Below are positions 2,285 through 23,266 of a DNA stretch of 33,073 nt, one piece after another (the first letter of the stretch is position 1; every line of letters starts with the position of its first letter). A model generated the notes under the pieces. It did no database searches, was not told the origin of the DNA, and saw only the letters and a list, made by a program, of their open reading frames with translations. The position numbers and the translations under genes were made by a program. The stretch is from a virus, in IMG/VR virus record IMGVR_UViG_3300027734_000202, positions 1 through 33,073 of that record; one strand, written 5' to 3'.

Positions 2285-2320
2285 AGTATAGCAAAATTTG
2301 CGGGACAAGTCAAGTATAAT
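2285..2320. promoter_or_regulatory. overlapping divergent promoters
   Basis: Leftward: TTGACT with 17-base spacing to TATACT (2285-2290), reading into the gene starting at 2278. Rightward: TATAAT at 2315-2320, six bases before the ATG at 2327. The rightward -10 overlaps the leftward -35 region, so the two promoters probably exclude each other. Both predicted transcripts start at the ATG. Confidence 0.65.
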
Positions 2321-2326
2321 AGAGTA

Positions 2327-2641
2327 ATGACCCTACTATACATCCTATACAGCCCATTACATAAGGCTATTAAGATAGGGATATCTGATGTGTCTGGTAG
2401 AAGGTTTGCAGCCCATAGGACCAAGGGTTGGATACTCATAAAGTATTGGGCATTTTCCGAACGGGATCAAGCAAGATACATAGAATCCCTAGTAGTACAA
2501 ACCCTTACTTCCAAGTATGGACATTTTCTGGATAAGGCAGATATGCCACAAGGGGGATATACGGAGACATTTGATGCGTCAAAGATAACTCGAAAAGGTT
2601 TGATCCGTATGGTCAATAAGGAAATAAGGGGCTTCGGGTGA
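2327..2641 (+). CDS. GIY-YIG-like (T5orf172-type) protein
   Basis: 104 aa. The N-terminus YILYSPLHKAIKIGIS (about residues 5-20) fits the GIY-YIG nuclease signature (Y-I, about ten residues, K-I-G), followed by an Arg pair and His (GRRFAAHR, residues 24-31) as in the T5orf172 / MUG113 branch. The Glu in AFSERDQARYIE could be catalytic. Such domains cut DNA or occur in small regulatory phage proteins. It is a stand-alone minimal domain with no DNA-binding extension. The ATG follows TATAAT by six bases (leaderless). Its 3' end overlaps the convergent tRNA-Arg by ten bases. Confidence 0.65.
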   Translation: MTLLYILYSPLHKAIKIGISDVSGRRFAAHRTKGWILIKYWAFSERDQARYIESLVVQTLTSKYGHFLDKADMPQGGYTETFDASKITRKGLIRMVNKEIRGFG

Positions 2642-2702
2642 AGGAATCGGACCTTCATTGTCAGGTTCGGAACCTGGAGTACGACCATTATACGAACCCG
2701 AA
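2632..2702 (-). tRNA. tRNA-Arg (anticodon CCG)
   Basis: On the minus strand the 71-nt segment folds as a cloverleaf: acceptor TTCGGGT/ACCCGAA (seven pairs), D-stem GTAT/GTAC with an AATGGTC loop, anticodon loop TTCCGAA (anticodon CCG, reading CGG), and T-stem GAAGG/CCTTC with loop TCCGATT. Weak points: one anticodon-stem mismatch (C27/A43), C instead of U at position 55, and no encoded CCA (the discriminator G is followed by CCCC). It could be functional or decaying. It overlaps the last ten bases of the convergent GIY-YIG-like gene. Confidence 0.72.
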
Positions 2703-2767
2703 TCGCTAGATGCGATTGCTATATTCAGTGTACCACATATCCCACATATGGGGAAGTGTCTGGTGTA

Positions 2768-3283
2768 TCGTAATGTTTATATACCGTGGTTTTTTAGAGT
2801 TATCCACAGGTTAGTTTTTAAATGCTTCGTAAAGAGCAGCAATGACCGCTACTGCTGATATGCCTAACATAGCGTAAATCCAGTAAATGTATAGTATCCA
2901 TAGGTCCATATGTTGATGATATCATGGTTTTAAATCATAGTTATCCACATGTTTATCCACAGATAGATCTTACTGATTATATTATTAGACAGAGTAGAAG
3001 TGGAGTGAAGTGGAGGATAGTGGAGTAGGGAGCGCTTTTAAAGGCCCATCGTAATCTTTTAAAAAAAGAGCGGAGCCCTATCACAAAACCTTCATATTGT
3101 CAAACCTTCAAACCTTAATATCCCCGAAGCGGATGATACCACAGATATAATGGTTTGTCAAGTCCTTTCAAACCTTAAAACCTGCATAAAAAAATCTCCC
3201 AAAACCAGGAGAAATTGTCGATAATCGTAATGTTTTATTTAAAAACTATTTAAAAATATCCAAAAACCAGGAGAAAAGGTTTG
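2768..3283. other. gene-poor region with DnaA boxes: candidate replication origin
   Basis: No convincing gene lies in this half-kilobase stretch. It holds three perfect DnaA boxes TTATCCACA (2800-2808, 2941-2949, 2953-2961), AT-rich DNA, three tandem 10-bp AGTGGAG repeats (2999-3028), TCGTAAT motifs (2768, 3049, 3225), CAAACCTT copies (from about 3099 and 3164) and two copies of an ACCAGGAGAAA segment (about 3205 and 3265). DnaA boxes plus iteron-like repeats next to AT-rich DNA are the usual parts of an origin. They could also be regulatory or titrate DnaA. Confidence 0.45.
2999..3028 (+). repeat. three tandem 10-bp AGTGGAG repeats
   Basis: AGTGGAGTGA, AGTGGAGGAT and AGTGGAGTAG lie head to tail with 10-bp periodicity, about one helical turn, just right of the DnaA-box pair at 2941-2961. 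Same-face spacing suggests cooperative protein binding, as for iterons. Confidence 0.6.
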
Positions 3284-3529
3284 TTATTCTATAGGGGGTA
3301 ATTGTTGTATGGTTTGGTCTTGATCCCCTGCGATTTCGCCTGGCTCAAAGCGTCCGTTGGACTGCTCAACTTTTTTATCCTGCAAAAAATCGGGGGTAAA
3401 TGAAAAGAAAGGAGACAAACCTATAGCATGAGTAATAGATACAAAACCATTCCACATTGAATCCGAGAATGCCTGATATTGTTTAGGATCTCTTTTAGCA
3501 TATTCTGCAAAGTGATGCTTGGGGCTCAT
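3284..3529 (-). CDS. hypothetical protein (81 aa)
   Basis: A single leftward gene inside the repeat-rich region. Residues 1-50 look folded (MSPKHHFAEYAKRDPKQYQA, with a helical middle around SITHAIGLSPFFSF); the C-terminal 30 are polar and Gln/Pro-rich. The ATG is preceded by TATAAT (3536-3541, extended TGT) with six bases between, so leaderless. A perfect AAGGTTTG palindrome (3553-3569) overlaps the upstream promoter region and could be its operator. No family recognised; an origin-linked role is only suggested by position. Confidence 0.6.
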   Translation of the reverse strand: MSPKHHFAEYAKRDPKQYQAFSDSMWNGFVSITHAIGLSPFFSFTPDFLQDKKVEQSNGRFEPGEIAGDQDQTIQQLPPIE

Positions 3530-3552
3530 ATAATAATTATAACACCATATAC

Positions 3553-3569
3553 AAGGTTTGACAAACCTT
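3553..3569. promoter_or_regulatory. perfect palindrome AAGGTTTG-A-CAAACCTT
   Basis: An 8+1+8 perfect inverted repeat located 12 to 28 bp upstream of the -10 of the 3284-3529 gene, where a repressor could block polymerase. Half-sites (AAGGTTTG or CAAACCTT) recur between 3099 and 3690, and a near-palindromic copy lies at 16909-16924. Confidence 0.5.
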
Positions 3570-3722
3570 ACAAACTATGGTATAAGATCAGCAGGGGGAA
3601 AGATTTGAAGGTTCGTAATGTCCTGGTTTGGGGAAATTAAGGTTTGGATCGTAATGTCTGGATATAAGGTTTGGGGTTTGACAATTTGATAAAGATATGG
3701 CACGTGCCCTTTCGGGGCGCAG
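3570..3722. repeat. non-coding stretch with GGTTTG and TCGTAATGT repeats
   Basis: Contains two TCGTAATGT copies (3613-3621, 3649-3657) and several GGTTTG motifs. Just left of the 3723 stop codon is a GC-rich hairpin-forming segment (GCCC-CGAAA-GGGC on the minus strand) followed by the palindrome GGCACGTGCC. An open frame across it is low-complexity and overlaps the neighbouring gene, so I treat it as non-coding. Confidence 0.45.
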
Positions 3723-3986
3723 TTAGTCTTCTGTAAAAATATCTTCCAGTCGTGCAAAACCTTCATCTTCAATTCCCAAACCTTCAATAAATAAATCCCA
3801 AGTTTCATTTATGTATTGGTCTAGTGATGGTGTGCGATTAATTATTCCTTCGGCAAAAGCAAACGCAAGTGGCAAACCTAAATCGCTATAAGCAAAGAAG
3901 TCTGTCCATTCGTCATCTTGTTTAAAGTTAATCCATAGTTGTCCAAGAATTAAAGCCCTGCTATCAAAATCCGTTTGTGTTGGCAT
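3723..3986 (-). CDS. acidic hypothetical protein (87 aa)
   Basis: An acidic protein with aromatic helical segments (LILGQLWINFKQDDEWTDFF; FAFAEGIINRTPSLDQYI) ending EDIFTED. It is preceded by GAAGGA at suitable spacing and overlaps the 3' end of the 3964-4173 gene. A GC hairpin after its stop may end transcription. Function unknown. Confidence 0.65.
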   Translation of the reverse strand: MPTQTDFDSRALILGQLWINFKQDDEWTDFFAYSDLGLPLAFAFAEGIINRTPSLDQYINETWDLFIEGLGIEDEGFARLEDIFTED

Positions 3987-4173
3987 AATTAGTTCCTTCC
4001 TTAGTTTCTTTGGCTGACTCTGCTATTACCTGTAAACGATTATACACGACATTGGGTTGGGACTTTGCCAAGTATTCCCCGACTAATTCTAAATCCACTC
4101 GCAGGTCAGAAATAGTATTGCCGAGTTTATTGGCAACTTTTTCCTCATCTGTAGTTCGTCTGCTTATACGCAT
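3964..4173 (-). CDS. basic helical small protein (69 aa)
   Basis: I start this gene at the ATG at 4173 (MRISRRTTDEEKVANKLGNT) because AAGGGAGA stands at proper spacing; an upstream in-frame ATG at 4200 lacks one. The protein is basic at the N-terminus and largely helical, with a possible coiled coil (ISDLRVDLELVGEYL). GATACAAT upstream is a plausible -10. It is coupled to the 3723-3986 gene by overlap. A small DNA-binding role is possible but unsupported. Confidence 0.65.
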   Translation of the reverse strand: MRISRRTTDEEKVANKLGNTISDLRVDLELVGEYLAKSQPNVVYNRLQVIAESAKETKEGTNYANTNGF

Positions 4174-4266
4174 AGTTCTCCCTTGTGTCCATTGTATCAA
4201 AAAGTGGGGGAAAGAGCAAGCCCCACGCTTGCCCTTCCCACCCGATTAATCTAGGTGACCCAAGAC

Positions 4267-4614
4267 CTAGACCAGTGCTGGGCTATAAGCAGCCACAAAT
4301 TTATCAAAAGGTACAGAGACCCTGTCAGTAACAGTATTAGTAGTAAAGTCGATGAGGACTGTAGGGTCCCCTAAATCCAGGGCATCGTTATTAATTGCGA
4401 AGATACCAAACCCTGTTTCTTCAAGGACTGAGTCTTGCATAAGATAACTAATAATCATGCGGGTACCGTAGGATGAATCTCCAAGGCGTGGCTTAGCATG
4501 TTGCAGTGCCATGGCTAGGTCCCGCTCCCATTCAGTCTCACCCCAATGGCTATAGAGTACAACCATAGGGCCCTGCTCACTGTCTTTAAATACAAAGTTG
4601 ATCCGTGCTCCCAT
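4267..4614 (-). CDS. hypothetical phage protein (115 aa)
   Basis: Start MGARINFVFKDSEQGPMVVL is chosen over an in-frame ATG upstream because GGAGGAATAAA directly precedes it. The pattern (a hydrophobic strand, then VVLYSHWGETEWERDLAMAL) looks like an alpha/beta domain. It is the last gene of a six-gene operon beginning at 5942 and starts one base after the stop of the 4616-4762 gene, whose last codons carry its Shine-Dalgarno. No domain assigned. Confidence 0.7.
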   Translation of the reverse strand: MGARINFVFKDSEQGPMVVLYSHWGETEWERDLAMALQHAKPRLGDSSYGTRMIISYLMQDSVLEETGFGIFAINNDALDLGDPTVLIDFTTNTVTDRVSVPFDKFVAAYSPALV

Positions 4615-8363: not shown

Positions 8364-8446
8364 ACAAATCGGACATTTTTTTAATGTGTCGTAAATCATA
8401 GTGTGATCTTGATCATGTGGATAACCTGTGGATAAACGCCACGTGA
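8364..8446. promoter_or_regulatory. regulatory cluster: CRP-like half site, two DnaA boxes, ACGTG
   Basis: In order: TGTCCGATTTGTCC on the minus strand (about 8364-8381), TGTGA-N6-TCATG (8402-8417, one good half of a CRP-like site), DnaA boxes TGTGGATAA at 8416-8424 and 8427-8435 (11 bp apart), then CCACGTGAAAATTT. No ORF. This combination recurs around 13304-13390 and 14696-14755. Confidence 0.55.
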
Positions 8447-13303: not shown

Positions 13304-13392
13304 TGTGATAAATCTCACAAAATTTCGGGCGTGTCGTACACAACCTCTTAAACACCTGTGGATAACCCTGTGGATAAGTCCCACGTCCAAAA
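13304..13392. promoter_or_regulatory. CRP-like site, paired DnaA boxes and ACGT motif
   Basis: TGTGA-TAAATC-TCACA (13304-13319, perfect), then DnaA boxes TGTGGATAA at 13357-13365 and 13369-13377 (12 bp apart), then CCCACGTCCAAAAT leading into stem-loop copy 5. No gene. Same composite order as at 8402-8491. Confidence 0.58.
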
Positions 13393-14695: not shown

Positions 14696-14751
14696 TGTGT
14701 TTCTTATCACATTAGTTATACACACCCTGTGGATAAACGGGACGTGCAAAT
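14696..14751. promoter_or_regulatory. CRP-like site, DnaA box and ACGTG motif
   Basis: TGTGT-TTCTTA-TCACA (14696-14711, one mismatch), DnaA box TGTGGATAA (14728-14736), then GGGACGTGCAAATTTATT running into the stop codon of the 14752-14856 gene. Third instance of the composite. Confidence 0.5.
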
Positions 14752-20755: not shown

Positions 20756-23266
20756 ATGGCAGCAGAAAACATTGATAATACCGTTAATGGTACTGGTCTT
20801 TTCCCTGCAAAAGTTCCTGGTCTTTCAGATGCAGCAGATATTCAAGCAGCCCTCAAACTTTATCACTATGGGTCTTATACTTATGATGGTTCTAATACAA
20901 ATACCGCAAATCTTGTAACACCTTCAATAGCAAAACACCTTCAAAACCTTAAAGATGCAGATACTGCTGCTACAGCAGCCCTTGCTGCTCACGAAGCAGA
21001 TACAACAAATATTCACGGAATAGCAAACACAGCAAACCTTGCAACACAAACATATGTAAATACAGCAATTTCATCAGCAGTAAGCGGTGTTACAGGAGAA
21101 TATTCAAATCTTGCTGGAACTGCTATTGATTGGAACTCTGTTGACGAAAGATTTGATGTTGAGCCAAGACTTGCAAATGCTGGAACAATTATAACAAAAA
21201 CAGAAAATTTTATTTTATCTGCAAGTGATGTTGGCAAAACTGCTATTTTGTATTCTTCTAATCCAATGACTGTAACACTTCCATTAAATGCTTCAGTAGA
21301 AATTCCAGTAGGGTATTCAATTGATATAATTCAAACAGGAGCGGGATCAGTAACTGTTAATCCAGAAACTAATGCAGTATCAGTTAATAGCAAATCTAAC
21401 ATACGGTCTTTAGATGGACAGTATTCAAAAGGCACATTAGTTAAAATAGACACCAATACATGGTTTTTTTTTGGAAACTTACTTAACGTAGTAACTCCAG
21501 TTACACCTGTTGCCCCTACACCTGTTGCTCCAACACCTGTTGCTCCAACACCTGTAGCGCCTACACCTGTTGCCCCTACTCCTGTAGCACCAACACCAGT
21601 TGCACCAACACCAGTAGCACCCACACCAGTTGCGCCAACACCAGTTGCGCCAACACCAGTTGCGCCAACACCAGTTGCGCCAACACCAACGCCTACATTA
21701 GTGTGTCCACCACCAGGAGACACTAGCGGAAGTTTCTCAGATCCATGTGGCTTTGATCCAACAATATGTTGCAATAGTGATGGAGTTCCCTATACCCCAA
21801 CACCAACGCCAGTTGCTCAAACAACATATGACATTTATACTTATTGTGATCCAGTATTTCCTGCTATGAGAGGTGGAGCATATGGAACACAGCCATCAAG
21901 TTCAACTGTAAACACTGGAACAACAAGCACTCAAGGATTAAGTAGTGAACAGATAGTTTCACAACTTGGCTATGGTTCTGGTTGTCCAACAGTGCAAGTA
22001 GTAAACCCTGGAACAGTTTATCTTTCATATTGCTACCAGGGCGCACCAGTTGTTGAAAGTTTCTCTATAAATGCAGATAGCGTTCTAACTACAAACATTA
22101 ATGAAGCATGCTCAGTCTATAACACTCTTCTTAACAACATAGGTGCAACAAGTATTGACTGCTCAACAAGTTCTGCAAGAGTTGCTCCATCAAGTTGTGT
22201 GACAACACCTACACCAACAGCGCCTACACCTGTTGCTCCTACACCAACATGTCCAGATGGATATGTTTATTCAGATAGATTTGAAGAATGTAGACCAATA
22301 TCAACACCTACACCAACAGCGCCTACACCTGTTGCTCCTACACCAACAGCGCCTACACCTGTTGCTCCTACACCAACAGCCACAACCTACTACGCTTATG
22401 GATGCTGTAGCGGTGAAGCATTAGTTGTTGATGGACCTAACAATAATACTGCTAGATCAGATTATAGAAGTATAGCAGGATGCCAAGAATCAGGAGCAAC
22501 TACAAACTATCAAAATGCTGTGGCTAATGCTCAAGCAGCATGTCCTACACCAGTTGCTCCTACACCAACTGCTTCTTATCCAACATTACTTTCTGGACTA
22601 CGTTATTGTACAAATGGTGACGTTCCTAACCCAGCAAGCCCATGTACTCAAGCAAATGTAATTAATGGTGACTGTAAAGATGGAACTGCATCAGGACCAC
22701 TATGTACCCCCGCACCTACACCAGTTGCCCCTACACCAGTTGCTCCTACACCAACTGCTTCTTATCCTTCACTTCTTTCTGGATGGCATTATTGTGCATC
22801 AGGAGATGCTCCAAATCCATCAAGCCCTTGCCCATCTAACGGTAGCGGTACAGGAGTTAACTGTGTAGAAAATGGAGCATCTGGTTCATCTTGTACAAAT
22901 CCAAATGCACCTACCCCAGTTGCACCTACACCTGTTGCACCTACACCAACAGCACCTACACCTGTAGCATTAGATTGCAGCCCTTGCGATCCAGCACTAT
23001 CTGGAGGTGCTTGTGGACCATACGGAAATGGAACTTTATGTTGGACCCCTAATGGCTGTCCAAATAGATGTGATGGAGACCATGCACCAGCACCTGTTGC
23101 ACCCGCCCCAGTTGCTCCAGTTGCTCCAGCACCTGTCGCACCCGCACCCGCAGGAAATACTTGTGCAACAAACTGTTACTGGTGTCCAATAAGCATCGTT
23201 CCATGCGGATATAATAATTGTGTTTATGATGGCTGTGGCGGTTTCTCAGGATATACCTCAACATGA
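20756..23266 (+). CDS. giant proline-rich (VAPTP)n Cys-rich tail-fibre/adhesin (836 aa)
   Basis: Residues 1-110 resemble other fibre N-termini here, with HEADTTNIHGIANTANLATQ shared with the 31317 gene. A beta domain of about 140 residues follows. Then (VAPTP)n: 12 consecutive 15-bp units at 21508-21687 and further short blocks linking four or five Cys-rich modules. Two modules are near duplicates (SYPTLLSGLRYCTNGD and SYPSLLSGWHYCASGD). The C-terminus is Cys-rich (CATNCYWCP, VYDGCGG). Alternating X-Pro repeats resemble plant arabinogalactan-type hydroxyproline glycomodules. It directly precedes the proposed modification cassette. Function: virion adhesin (inferred). Confidence 0.8.
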   Translation: MAAENIDNTVNGTGLFPAKVPGLSDAADIQAALKLYHYGSYTYDGSNTNTANLVTPSIAKHLQNLKDADTAATAALAAHEADTTNIHGIANTANLATQTYVNTAISSAVSGVTGEYSNLAGTAIDWNSVDERFDVEPRLANAGTIITKTENFILSASDVGKTAILYSSNPMTVTLPLNASVEIPVGYSIDIIQTGAGSVTVNPETNAVSVNSKSNIRSLDGQYSKGTLVKIDTNTWFFFGNLLNVVTPVTPVAPTPVAPTPVAPTPVAPTPVAPTPVAPTPVAPTPVAPTPVAPTPVAPTPVAPTPVAPTPTPTLVCPPPGDTSGSFSDPCGFDPTICCNSDGVPYTPTPTPVAQTTYDIYTYCDPVFPAMRGGAYGTQPSSSTVNTGTTSTQGLSSEQIVSQLGYGSGCPTVQVVNPGTVYLSYCYQGAPVVESFSINADSVLTTNINEACSVYNTLLNNIGATSIDCSTSSARVAPSSCVTTPTPTAPTPVAPTPTCPDGYVYSDRFEECRPISTPTPTAPTPVAPTPTAPTPVAPTPTATTYYAYGCCSGEALVVDGPNNNTARSDYRSIAGCQESGATTNYQNAVANAQAACPTPVAPTPTASYPTLLSGLRYCTNGDVPNPASPCTQANVINGDCKDGTASGPLCTPAPTPVAPTPVAPTPTASYPSLLSGWHYCASGDAPNPSSPCPSNGSGTGVNCVENGASGSSCTNPNAPTPVAPTPVAPTPTAPTPVALDCSPCDPALSGGACGPYGNGTLCWTPNGCPNRCDGDHAPAPVAPAPVAPVAPAPVAPAPAGNTCATNCYWCPISIVPCGYNNCVYDGCGGFSGYTST
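21508..21687 (+). repeat. 12 tandem 15-bp repeats encoding VAPTP
   Basis: Twelve in-frame copies of CC(T/A)GT(T/A)GC-N-CC-N-AC-N; the last four are nearly identical at DNA level, indicating recent expansion. Copy number can change by slippage without breaking the frame. Further blocks occur within 22200-23000 and at about 23080-23140. Confidence 0.9.

Follow-up and report, generated by a model that had tools for sequence, protein, structure and literature searches.

The locus at 2768-3660 of the window, as we call the whole analysed stretch of 33,073 bases from a virus record, contains a conserved block that, to judge from its sequence, is probably a functional origin region. We put at about an even chance the fuller reading in which a large actinobacteriophage has its replication origin region here, at or no more than ~100 bp from the point where its terminal repeat begins. 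An origin that depends on host DnaA is the best reading of the block, and the origin call is partly supported; what is new is the apparent tie of the origin region to the chromosome end in cultured relatives. The window covers 33 kb of a ~115-kb actinobacteriophage, the relatives of which in IMG/VR reach up to 112-119 kb, and the group consists of large, mainly uncultured viruses of freshwater Actinobacteria, in which the locus is one strongly conserved noncoding control site. The features referred to below are as follows (window positions).

2768..3654, + strand: TCGTAA repeats, at 2768, 2827, 3049, 3225, 3613 and 3649, all +
2800..2808, + strand: outlying DnaA box, exact 9-nt TTATCCACA
2941..2949, + strand: core DnaA box 1, exact TTATCCACA
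2953..2961, + strand: core DnaA box 2, 12 bp after box 1
2965..2992, + strand: AATCTTACTGAT-type conserved block with AT-rich stretch, a possible unwinding element
2999..3025, + strand: three AGTGGAG repeats with 10-bp period, the most conserved part
3028..3030, no strand assigned: predicted left boundary of the terminal repeat, by analogy with cultured phages
3049..3054, + strand: core TCGTAA, with the predicted end ~21 bp to its left
3101..3784, no strand assigned: CAAACCTT/AAGGTTTG array, including the inverted repeat at 3553-3569
3284..3529, - strand: predicted 81-aa ORF, its cluster found in 110 of 149 class A, 10 of 12 class B and none of the class C or D loci listed
8416-8435 and 13357-13377: further perfect TTATCCACA sites as pairs (8416/8427 and 13357/13369, spacing 11-12 bp)
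14728-14736, - strand: further perfect TTATCCACA site

The sequence-only reading had proposed a candidate origin here from an accumulation of repeats, and the elements it named are present: three DnaA boxes TTATCCACA at 2800, 2941 and 2953 (all +), three tandem AGTGGAG copies in 10-bp register (2999, 3009 and 3019), five repeats of one type (TCGTAATGT at 2768, 3225, 3613 and 3649, and TCGTAATCT at 3049), seven CAAACCTT/AAGGTTTG copies within 2768-3660, the 17-nt inverted repeat AAGGTTTGACAAACCTT at 3553-3569, the centre base of which is unpaired, and two ACCAGGAGAAA copies at 3204 and 3266. Over the whole window CAAACCTT/AAGGTTTG occurs 19 times against 1.87 expected, a count that none of 100 shuffles reached. 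Within 2768-3660, 198 of 893 bases lie in 8-mers that occur at least three times, which none of 500 Markov shuffles matched. The stronger statement that repeat density is far above that of the rest of the window did not hold, as 44 of 608 other subwindows reach the same level; these start only at 20.8-22.4, 29.3-29.5 and 31.3-32.2 kb, the sites of long ORFs, and 2768-3660 ranks top in 8-mer repeats among those outside the three zones. One long protein of the window, of 836 aa (20756-23266), contains long PTPVAP repeats. Nor is there only one small gene in the region, since a 32-aa hydrophobic ORF (2811-2909, - strand) lies between the DnaA boxes, in addition to the 81-aa ORF, and its sequence would make it a possible small membrane protein.

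The core occupies 2941-3057, is noncoding, and consists of two DnaA boxes, TTACTGAT with the AT-rich stretch, the AGTGGAG triplet and then CGTAA. The same order of motifs was found in most of 37 loci related via the 81-aa ORF, one of which (L045) is without an exact DnaA box there. We enlarged this set by pattern scans of viral contigs, and a DUF932 scan supplied 80 of 391 matches, so that the counts that follow are among the matches listed, a sample; we discarded cores flanked by <160 nt on one side or the other, collapsed class A cores no more than 3% apart (which reduced 146 to 141), and grouped the loci into classes A to D by a rule of our own. Among the 172 distinct cores listed, 144 carry a pair of DnaA boxes (<=1 mismatch) within 80 nt to the left of AGTGGAG, 2 carry three, 2 a single box and 24 no box, and the boxes start at -58/-46 in 88 and at -57/-46 in 39 of the 172. 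The DnaA boxes are hence not indispensable at the core, which counts against the origin reading. Among 177 loci listed, 149 belong to class A (boxes, TTACTGAT and triplet), 12 to class B, which is without strong DnaA boxes and keeps the AATCTTACTGAT-type block, the triplet and the remainder, 12 to class C, with a different left-hand sequence, 2 to class D, with the boxes on the right, and 2 to none of these. The AGTGGAG triplet is the sole element present in all classes, partly because AGTGGAG served as the search anchor. In the 141 class A cores listed, aligned on that anchor, pairwise identity was 0.90 in the triplet, 0.66-0.69 in the boxes and TTACTGAT block, and 0.30 and 0.33 in the flanking stretches. 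In 137 of these cores the start of CGTAA lies 50-54 nt beyond the first base of AGTGGAG, and none of the reading frames runs uninterrupted through the core in more than 70 of the 141. Moreover, of 29 long contigs, 27 have a single copy of the triplet and 2 have none. A DUF932 match was obtained in 25 of the 27 contigs searched, always right of the core and antiparallel, at 3.2-5.7 kb by our own arithmetic, two of these distances running across contig ends and one being truncated by such an end.

The host of the window phage is probably an actinobacterium, which is suggested by a WhiB match in 25 of 27 long relatives and by the 51-53% identity of the DUF932 protein to proteins of Streptomyces phages of the Stanwilliamsviridae; among 14 control genomes WhiB was matched only in the actinobacterium Corynebacterium. 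Phages of Nanopelagicales, at 39 kb, are unlike this group (PMC10202952). No DNA similar to window positions 2300-4300 was matched in the phage collection, and the 131-nt core gave weak partial matches in phage and plasmid collections, none spanning 80% of it. The relative G001 also carries carbamoyltransferase and 2OG-Fe(II) oxygenase genes (47558-48982 and 61618-63045).

We compared the core with the chromosome ends of seven Streptomyces phages of the Boydwoodruffvirinae, two Loccivirinae, Rhodococcus phage NiceHouse and two satellites. Physical ends are published as mapped for two of the seven Boydwoodruffvirinae, and for the other five the repeat is taken as deposited in the record. The terminal repeat of NootNoot is exact and 10,787 bp long, from 120,300, the same length as given in PMC5764925, where read starts and a doubling of coverage were used to locate the ends; that of Warpy, 11,458 in the record, agrees with the published physical end. 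In all seven Boydwoodruffvirinae TTATCCACA stands at -93 (-95 in Riptide) and its inverse at -69 or -71 relative to the start of the terminal repeat. This DnaA-box pair at fixed spacing left of the terminal repeat is new. The other TTATCCACA copies in these seven records are scattered, with the exception of an extra pair beside the boundary pair in MulchMansion, and the left 16 kb of NootNoot has no iterated repeats or DnaA boxes like those of the core. In both Loccivirinae the DnaA boxes lie in a large noncoding gap ~6 kb from the end, and left of the end GAGTGAGAGTGTAATA and AGAGTGAGGGTAATT resemble, by eye, AGTGTGTAATG of the other phages. NiceHouse has neither a AGTGTGTAATG-like end sequence nor DnaA boxes, and the two satellites of such phages have no DnaA-box cluster.

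A second likeness concerns TCGTAA, which in the noncoding region is on one strand in 41 of 41 copies in eight phages (the window, G001, G002 and five Boydwoodruffvirinae, Warpy and Yaboi being left out). The one-strand repeats in both groups support homology of the noncoding region between freshwater and Streptomyces phages. In the Loccivirinae three of three copies are on one strand in each record, and their relation to DUF932 is opposite. At 4 of the 12 ends (Karimac, MulchMansion, LukeCage and the satellite Mulchroom) the C of a TCGTAA lies 21-22 bp into the repeat; a copy at +21 is absent from four of the seven Boydwoodruffvirinae, both Loccivirinae, NiceHouse and one of the two satellites. 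TGGGGTAT and TTCGTAAG occur both in Mulchroom (L358, 1-45) and where the terminal repeat of its helper MulchMansion begins, although the satellite has terminase genes of its own.

From the distance of CGTAA to the first AGTGGAG base and the offset of TCGTAA in the cultured phages, the analogous end would fall at +29 to +33, and it is plausible by this analogy that the physical end of the window phage lies just right of the triplet, at 3028-3030. Class A cores almost always have G at +31 and C at +34, and the DnaA-box pair of the window would be 88-89 bp from the end if the prediction is right, compared with 93-95 bp in the Boydwoodruffvirinae. Because the matching place in cultured relatives adjoins the terminal-repeat start, AGTGGAG may, on the same analogy, mark the chromosome end rather than represent initiator iterons. 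The core was missed by a weight matrix derived from nine ends of Streptomyces phages, in which it ranked 8-55 in the window, 16-381 in G001 and 38-571 in G002 depending on matrix and width. The IMG/VR records are listed as having no end repeats, and the positions at which contigs stop do not cluster at the predicted end. Contig ends were commoner within 4 kb right of the core than left of it, for which repeats, hypervariability or a terminal repeat might be responsible: of 194 contigs listed, >4 kb is present right of the core in 115 and left of it in 163.

These observations bring up the possibility that the core is a chromosome end or packaging site only, recognised by terminase and cut at the terminal-repeat start, with the DnaA boxes incidental or part of a separate element. 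We consider this somewhat unlikely. It would account for class B, in which the triplet with CGTAA at +51 to +53 is kept in cores lacking strong DnaA boxes, for the counterpart place that adjoins the terminal repeat in 7/7 Boydwoodruffvirinae, for the agreement of the TCGTAA offset between satellite Mulchroom (+21) and helper MulchMansion (+22), and for the DnaA boxes remote from the end in 2/2 Loccivirinae. However, the weight-matrix test of the nine ends and the contig ends without a peak speak against it, the portal and capsid genes are ~46-50 kb away in G001, and in most cores the DnaA boxes keep a near-constant distance from AGTGGAG, which suggests joint action of the two.

In the origin reading, by comparison, host DnaA would bind the two boxes of the core (2941 and 2953), the short AT-rich TTACTGAT block right of them would open, and the phage's own helicase, primase and PolIII alpha would be loaded there. 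G001, the only relative annotated for replication genes, has a DnaB-like helicase, primase, SSB and PolIII alpha. No match to the DnaA family was found in any of 13 records, with positive controls, and no Rep or initiator protein was named among ten window proteins searched against Pfam, ten against PHROGs and forty G001 protein queries against Pfam. The AGTGGAG triplet would be bound by a phage protein, possibly the end-forming (terminase or nicking) machinery or an initiator coupled to end formation; the end-forming role is suggested by the triplet's counterpart in cultured relatives, which adjoins the physical chromosome end.

What stands of the earlier origin claim is thus a deeply conserved, single-copy, noncoding block of DnaA boxes, AT-rich stretch and direct repeats in phages with no detected DnaA, whereas the tests of skew, DnaA-trio and unwinding element did not favour it. 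A skew switch and a replication start located elsewhere had been named as evidence against an origin here, and the first of these is, in the letter, what was found: in both contigs tested, G001 and G002, the cumulative GC skew has its extreme 9-11 kb away from the core, with no switch at the core itself. The extreme coincides with a change of gene direction in both, and because skew follows gene direction it does not decide for or against an origin. The AT-rich stretch is weak as an unwinding element, reaching the 98th percentile over 30 bp and the 71st over 100 bp. DnaA-trio repeats (3'-G/A-A-T-5', as defined in PMC10797057, with A also accepted in the last place) next to the core boxes were rejected, runs of at least three occurring in 4 of 141 class A cores listed compared with 5.6% in shuffles. 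The DnaA-box pairs elsewhere in the window also count against the origin reading: of five more perfect TTATCCACA copies outside 2768-3660, four form the two pairs. These further sites are in stretches without a long ORF, and comparable pairs occur in G001 (71950/71961 and 77235/77247). We also considered and rejected mimicry of a host oriC, as one scan of genome contigs with the box-TTACTGAT pattern gave a single stretch, in phage contig L333, and hence no host oriC matched the exact pattern in that scan. L333 is a contig of the window's own group filed in a Chitinophagaceae MAG, probably through a binning error.

If the origin and the chromosome end were a single fused device across cultured Streptomyces phages and uncultured freshwater relatives, DnaA bound ~90 bp from the boundary would start a fork through the repeat, initiation would both duplicate the terminal repeat and set the packaging cut, and the AGTGGAG triplet would be the phage-specific switch between the two; we regard this as an unlikely extension of the origin reading. 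The duplication of long terminal repeats and the start of replication in large virulent phages with their own replisome look unsettled for the window's family, and our full-text literature search found no paper linking Streptomyces phage terminal repeats with DnaA, and none on a DnaA-box replication origin in an actinobacteriophage. The conserved block is a precise, cloneable target, which Streptomyces phages with known ends make testable, and a single-copy marker for a widespread phage group.

It is quite improbable that the locus is instead a DnaA-regulated promoter region, in which DnaA boxes and AAACCTT/TCGTAA would be early-gene operators with no part in the start of replication. Promoter-like sites with CAAACC at -35 exist, and extra DnaA-box pairs occur at a distance from the core, the first (8416/8427) upstream of the DUF932 gene; but gene orientation and neighbours vary between classes while the triplet stays, and the promoter-like sites are not commoner than in shuffles (6 against a mean of 7.8). 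The CAAACCTT/AAGGTTTG array partly overlaps the -35 of promoter-like sites at 3536-3564 and 3133-3161, both on the - strand, and since several CAAACCTT copies come after TTGACA/TTGTCA of such sites the array may be an operator; none was seen in the class C and D stretches displayed. Three direct repeats at helical period, once per genome, together with ParB-domain genes annotated in cultured relatives, could also suggest a partition (centromere) or other plasmid-maintenance site, which is highly improbable given that there are only three repeats and that BE phages are presumed virulent in PMC10690885. A structured RNA or small-protein gene in the core, which base-for-base conservation and recurrent ORFs over it (maybe merely reflecting conserved DNA) might suggest, is scarcely credible, as the core is without an Rfam match at the gathering threshold, no frame is open in over half of the 141 cores, and a hairpin right of the triplet was rejected, its stems being no longer than in shuffles (3.87 versus 3.91).

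Among known systems, bacterial oriC with its basal unwinding system has DnaA boxes in tandem and, 3' of them, an AT-rich stretch, an arrangement that the core shares, whereas the core has no DnaA-trio run and no dnaA gene, carries extra 10-bp repeats and belongs to a viral genome. The iteron theta origins of the plasmids P1, F and RK2 likewise combine DnaA boxes, an AT-rich stretch and direct repeats; in the window no adjoining Rep gene was recognised. Plasmid iterons are quoted as 17-22 bp (PMC4980987) whereas AGTGGAG is a 7-mer at 10-bp period, and the matching place in cultured relatives adjoins the terminal repeat, so the label 'iteron-like' given in the sequence-only reading is doubtful. 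Lambda ori, described with four O-binding iterons, is also a phage origin with direct repeats, but the window core has DnaA boxes and no O-like gene was recognised. For a Pseudomonas phage with terminal repeats a DnaA-box origin was predicted by Ori-Finder (PMC11512268; PMC5043065 is among the background sources cited). The terminal-repeat boundary of the Boydwoodruffvirinae (cluster BE, for example NootNoot, MF347636) differs in that its boxes are inverted and 22-24 bp apart, whereas those of the window are direct at 11-12 bp, in that it has no AGTGGAG triplet, and in that ends are published as mapped there and predicted by analogy in the window phage. The likenesses are a noncoding DnaA-box pair, the early gene DUF932 to the right and antiparallel, one-strand TCGTAA repeats and, in three of the seven, a TCGTAA 21-22 bp from the end.
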